NCBI GenBank assembly: GCA_030836965.1
Contig: JAUPLM010000065.1
Location: 1-12,211, forward strand
Direction of reading: 5' to 3'
Origin: Thermodesulfobacteriota bacterium
Lineage (GTDB): Bacteria > Desulfobacterota > Desulfobacteria > Desulfobacterales > RPRI01
DNA: 12,211 nt
Positions 2,465 through 4,572 of the stretch are shown here, piece after piece. Below the pieces are notes generated by a model. The model did not search any database and was not told the origin of the DNA. It was given only the letters and a program-made list of their open reading frames with translations. Both the position numbers and the translations under genes were made by a program. Each line of letters starts with the position of its first letter. The first letter of the stretch is position 1.

Positions 2465-4572
<2,108 letters not shown>

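Follow-up and report, generated by a model that had tools for sequence, protein, structure and literature searches.

We find that the ligA gene in the window, the whole stretch of 12,211 nucleotides analysed here, is broken once by an in-frame TGA, and we consider it probable that this TGA is a sequence or assembly error. The TGA is present in the sequence but most likely absent from the organism, and we infer that this one base is in error. An error, and not new biology, is the most likely reading because the same draft assembly has a stop inside rpoB. The window is contig C398 of a Desulfobacterales metagenome-assembled genome (MAG), G000, and its closest named relatives are Desulfobacterales MAGs.

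The ligA frame and its single stop

The TGA at 2467..2465 lies in frame with ligA, closing an upstream open reading frame (ORF) of 459 aa, and a downstream ORF of 214 aa starts at the abutting TTG. The features, all on the minus strand, are these:

1820-3844, minus strand: ligA, whole frame, 674 codons plus terminator, from the ATG at 3844 to the TGA at 1820
2465..3844, minus strand: 5' part of ligA through the in-frame TGA, with adenylation, OB and zinc finger domains, 459 aa (from ORF and Pfam)
2465..2467, minus strand: in-frame TGA, codon 460, Gly in all relatives examined (from ORFs and relatives' loci)
2462..2464, minus strand: TTG abutting the TGA, a normal sense codon within the frame that could mechanically serve as a start too
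1820..2464, minus strand: 3' part of ligA, with HhH and BRCT domains, 214 codons, terminator TGA (from ORF and Pfam)

The original prediction had described a ligA of normal length interrupted once, by TGA at 2465..2467, and this is confirmed: codon 460 is the sole stop in a 674-codon frame that can otherwise be aligned to LigA over its full length (G000:C398:1823-3844, 1 TGA). On sequence grounds, a run of 214 homologous codons without a stop after the TGA is far beyond chance. Where the frame has TTG just after the TGA, the 45 relatives printed have Leu or Met.

Adenylation, OB, four-Cys zinc finger, HhH and BRCT domains are all present, as judged from the Pfam lists of the two pieces and from the four Cys seen in the sequence. 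The N-terminal piece (P0029) carries PF22745 and PF01653, which we take to be adenylation families, with PF03120 and PF03119, presumably OB and zinc finger; the C-terminal piece (P0121) carries PF12826 and PF14520, which we take to be helix-hairpin-helix (HhH), and PF00533, presumably BRCT. PF01653 scores 321.8 bits, and the N-terminal piece contains the KxDG lysine motif of the adenylation domain as EPKMDG; one passage of PMC10504179 names KxDG as a motif of the ligase. LigA is an uninterrupted chain and the assembled frame, with its 1 TGA, is not, probably through error. No Rfam families were found in the window.

Such an error would lie in the consensus sequence of this fragmented metagenome assembly and could come from a base call, low coverage or mixed strains. 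The underlying ligA would then be otherwise normal and functional, and its product in the cell would be an ordinary LigA. This enzyme would adenylate itself in an NAD+-dependent step, hand the AMP on to the 5' phosphate at a nick in DNA and then seal that nick; its zinc finger and HhH domains would assist in closing a clamp around the DNA.

Codon 460 and its surroundings in relatives

The ligA codon was compared in related genomes, a check suggested with the original prediction. All 109 relative loci fetched have Gly at codon 460, a count that includes some genomes twice (L003-L031 and L032-L111 overlap in part, for example L005 and L032). At the protein level, Gly stands there in 119 of the best 120 homologues of 8000 scored, the 120th being the window's own N-terminal piece. 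The claim that a conserved Gly had been replaced thus holds, as does the reading DVDGMGDK given for E. coli LigA, whose Gly we see within that motif in the 2owo chain. Among the six closest proteins are full-length relatives of 674-684 aa. The two closest of all, P0001 and P0002, are drawn from separate source databases; they are near-identical to each other, 93% identical to the query and full-length, with Gly at 460.

The frame is unbroken in all nine genus mates (protein identity 71-88%). A TIGR00575 search of 136 genomes of the order gave matches in 126, including partial ones, and among these 126 only G000 has a mid-frame stop in ligA. Five TIGR00575 matches were listed with an internal stop. 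Four of these (in G121, G068, G081 and G083) are shorter paralogues flagged with one stop that is their natural end, and the fifth is G000 itself. An in-frame TAA in G040 was considered as a further broken ligA and rejected; it lies outside that genome's intact ligA frame. A TGA common to relatives was seen in none of the nine genus mates, the 109 loci or the 126 matched genomes of the order.

We also searched with the separate pieces. With the C-terminal piece, of the best 120 matches (3988 in all) the window's own 214-aa fragment alone exceeded 90% identity, the next closest in that set being 81-85% identical, and a phage search with the same piece returned 117 records, all below 60% identity. 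The cluster of the N-terminal piece, P0029, lists two member sequences on one contig; its other member could be a second copy of this piece, a point against the error reading.

Some genomes of the order showed other forms of LigA-like frame. In 33 of the 126 matched genomes the sole match falls below the TIGR00575 cut-off, and 32 of these (all but a contig-edge piece in G026) have open frames of ~610-770 aa that mostly match only the region after the adenylation domain. A few genomes of the order have, in addition, a short paralogue resembling LigA whose match extends to roughly model position 575.

Around the stop, the protein is well preserved. Taking the columns in which 99% or more of the other 119 proteins agree, we see a single departure in the query, at 460, against 0 to 4 per protein (mean 0.71) among those 119. 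The part of ligA downstream of the TGA is conserved as a coding frame, with dN/dS values before and after the stop of 0.127 and 0.179 against G002, 0.114 and 0.179 against G008, 0.108 and 0.230 against G001, 0.082 and 0.102 against G009, and 0.107 and 0.136 against G005. In all five of these comparisons with genus mates, constraint is thus weaker after the stop than before it, which counts against the error reading; some of the difference may reflect the different domains, and the comparison cannot separate this from relaxed selection. The view that the lesion is either recent or not real is upheld.

A chimeric join at the TGA was considered and rejected, as the identity of G000 to G002, G008 and G001 has no step at 2465. 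The mosaic pattern seen in this comparison belongs to G001 (L005). The N-terminal half of its ligA (window 2851-3750) is 63-80% identical to G000 per 150 bases, the rest 82-93%, and that half is likewise more divergent from G002 and G008. This suggests recombination in the G001 lineage.

Other lesions in the same assembly

G000 comprises 2,143,943 bases in 442 contigs and is 63.6% complete and 2.5% contaminated. We surveyed a sample of it for broken genes (60 of the 442 contigs, the window, and loci around tRNAs and prfA that these did not already include; 66 pieces, 335,235 bases) and compared it with a sample of the genus mate G005 (55 pieces, 823,358 bases). An internal stop was counted when it had at least 15 aligned columns at 50% identity or more on both sides. 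The ligA TGA itself is outside these counts, as the ligA contig of G005 was not in the sample.

Among 79 aligned stretches of G000 (25,169 codons), two stops passed this rule, 12 failed it and one frameshift was found. The reverse survey of G005 (81 stretches, 26,071 codons) gave no frameshift, one passing stop and ten failing ones. Two of the passing stops, at L283 in G000 and L194 in G005, are antisense to open frames and were dropped from the counts; L283 contains no Rfam families. This leaves one true internal stop in the G000 survey, a TAG in rpoB, and after checking G005 has neither an internal stop nor a frameshift. An apparent G005 frameshift had come from a looser first survey, in which the query was a G000 frame antisense to the permease gene described below. 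Because the same bases break (5642-5651 of L210), it is the G000 permease lesion seen from the other strand.

All 22 stops that failed the rule were re-examined, and the following could be placed. Those in L202 and L270 are natural gene ends, and those in L286, L283 and L130 lie upstream of or antisense to open frames. The stop in L164 is in a low-identity stretch. At base 12328 of L235 (G005), neither strand has an open frame of 60 codons, and the G000 query for L235 overlaps the place of a tRNA gene.

The rpoB TAG lies at base 157 of L157 (G000:C40), within 458 aligned codons that are 87% identical. This is the single rpoB match in G000; it is truncated at the contig start and has one TAG. 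The gene is without a stop in all nine genus mates (in G004 it is in two pieces), and the position of the TAG is Lys in all eight relatives printed. Compared with the three closest relatives, the lesion consists of two changed bases in two neighbouring codons, and a further codon is altered seven before the TAG. RpoB, the RNA polymerase beta subunit, is indispensable, and a broken copy cannot be real in a living lineage. Because of this indispensability, the rpoB TAG is the strongest sign that the assembly contains consensus errors that make stops. The rpoB piece could be a real pseudogene if a full rpoB sat elsewhere, in the portion of the genome that the assembly lacks.

The frameshift lies inside contig C290 (L210), at ~5640-5650 in an A-rich place, in a gene that we take to encode an ABC transporter permease; its flanks are 91% and 89% identical. 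The error rate of G000 is a rough one, drawn from two events, one stop and one frameshift. The ligA TGA is well inside its contig and the rpoB stop near a contig start, a difference that counts against the error reading. Of the four explanations offered originally, base-call or assembly error is the best supported, through the rpoB TAG and the transporter-gene frameshift in the same assembly, and the other three (a nonsense allele with a backup ligase, UGA readthrough and a split ligase) are less so.

Alternatives to an error, and comparison with known ligases

If the TGA is real, it may be a recent nonsense allele carried by a strain or a minority of the population, in cells that are dying or that use a ligase encoded in the missing third of the genome. 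We regard this as unlikely. The downstream half of ligA shows no decay, as would suit a very young lesion, and with the assembly 64% complete a backup ligase could be absent from it. Against this, the suggested search for a second ligase came back empty: G000 has one PF01653 match and one place matching ligA DNA, with no second NAD ligase or ligA fragment, and an ATP-dependent ligase (PF01068) was found in none of the ten genus genomes, G000 included. The lack of a backup ligase is not proof, because G000 is only 64% complete. PMC10504179 describes LigA as essential even for bacteria that have several ligases.

We hold it to be highly improbable that a living cell carries this TGA and copes with it, whether through a LigA split between its zinc finger and HhH domain or through readthrough of UGA at this one codon. 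Readthrough could take the form of selenocysteine, of Gly inserted by a suppressor tRNA or of near-cognate decoding, and it too seems highly doubtful. The lineage probably uses selenocysteine, as G000 has selB (383.6 bits). tRNA-Sec is below cut-off in G000 and above it in five of the ten genus genomes (150 candidates scored per genome). Yet neither of the signs of a selenoprotein, a hairpin after the UGA and Cys homologues, was found: general folding, which is not specific to SECIS elements, is unremarkable after the TGA against shuffled sequence (z 0.89, -0.67 and -1.02), and position 460 is Cys in no relative and Gly throughout the 109 loci. The release factor gene prfB is not over cut-off in G000, which would favour readthrough, but it is over cut-off in all nine genus mates, so its absence from G000 fits incompleteness.

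Nor does the wider use of TGA in G000 favour recoding. We judged conserved gene ends in 75 stretches, 18 of which were short of an end. In the remaining 57, TGA ends 27, TAA 22 and TAG 3, with none found in 5; TGA is the commonest terminator among the conserved gene ends sampled. Within the window, ligA and the genes we take to be recO, rodZ and surA all end at TGA, as had been stated. ARAGORN gave no UCA anticodon at the 23 loci where G000 (64% complete) has a tRNA match. G000 therefore shows neither mark of a UGA=Gly code (table 25), a UCA tRNA and a UGA unused as stop, and the original view that a general code of this kind is unlikely is upheld.

Least probable of all is a natural split ligase, in which translation would terminate at the TGA and re-initiate at the abutting TTG, and a catalytic chain and an HhH-BRCT chain would assemble: TGATTG could permit such a stop and restart, and a two-subunit NAD ligase exists in the PDB (9hu3, 9i5i), but the break in 9hu3 is apparently before the zinc finger and not at 460, the split is common to no relative seen, the TTG is a mere codon of the frame, and the nearest purine-rich stretch seen upstream, AGAGGG, lies at a distance of 17 bases, more than is usual for a ribosome site. 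PMC1684257 describes a LigN without zinc finger, HhH and BRCT that self-adenylates and does not ligate, and a two-chain reconstitution that was prevented, as the C-terminal part was not stably expressed.

As an artefact, the ligA TGA is a warning only: one in-frame stop within an essential gene of a fragmented MAG needs to be weighed against the other essential genes of the same assembly, and this should precede proposals of recoding or splitting. Were the TGA real, the bacterium would be viable with a LigA that is split, or read through, at a site where all relatives examined have a single chain.

Three known systems can be set beside this gene. The Absconditabacteria and Gracilibacteria code, in which UGA is Gly, is alike in placing UGA at a conserved Gly. 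It is unlike in belonging to another phylum, and in G000 TGA is the most frequent of the terminators judged and no UCA tRNA was found. A 2021 screen names UGA=Gly in bacteria only for these two groups (PMC8629427).

A two-subunit ligase occurs in phage T5. The two-subunit NAD+ ligase of 9hu3 and 9i5i, with a chain A of 339 aa and a chain B of 248 aa ('DNA ligase subunit B'), resembles the case here in that two polypeptides cover the N- and C-terminal parts. The place of the break differs: the best matched stretches take 9hu3_A to query residue 399 and 9hu3_B from 411, so that its chain appears to be parted between OB domain and zinc finger, whereas the break in ligA here, at 460, comes after the zinc finger. 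For the break in ligA, no conservation was seen.

Unlike single-chain LigA, the frame as assembled here holds one TGA at a Gly position that follows the zinc finger and precedes the HhH domain. In all its domains and in their order it is like E. coli LigA (TIGR00575; PDB 2owo), to which query residues 10-669 align with an E-value of 8.9e-189.
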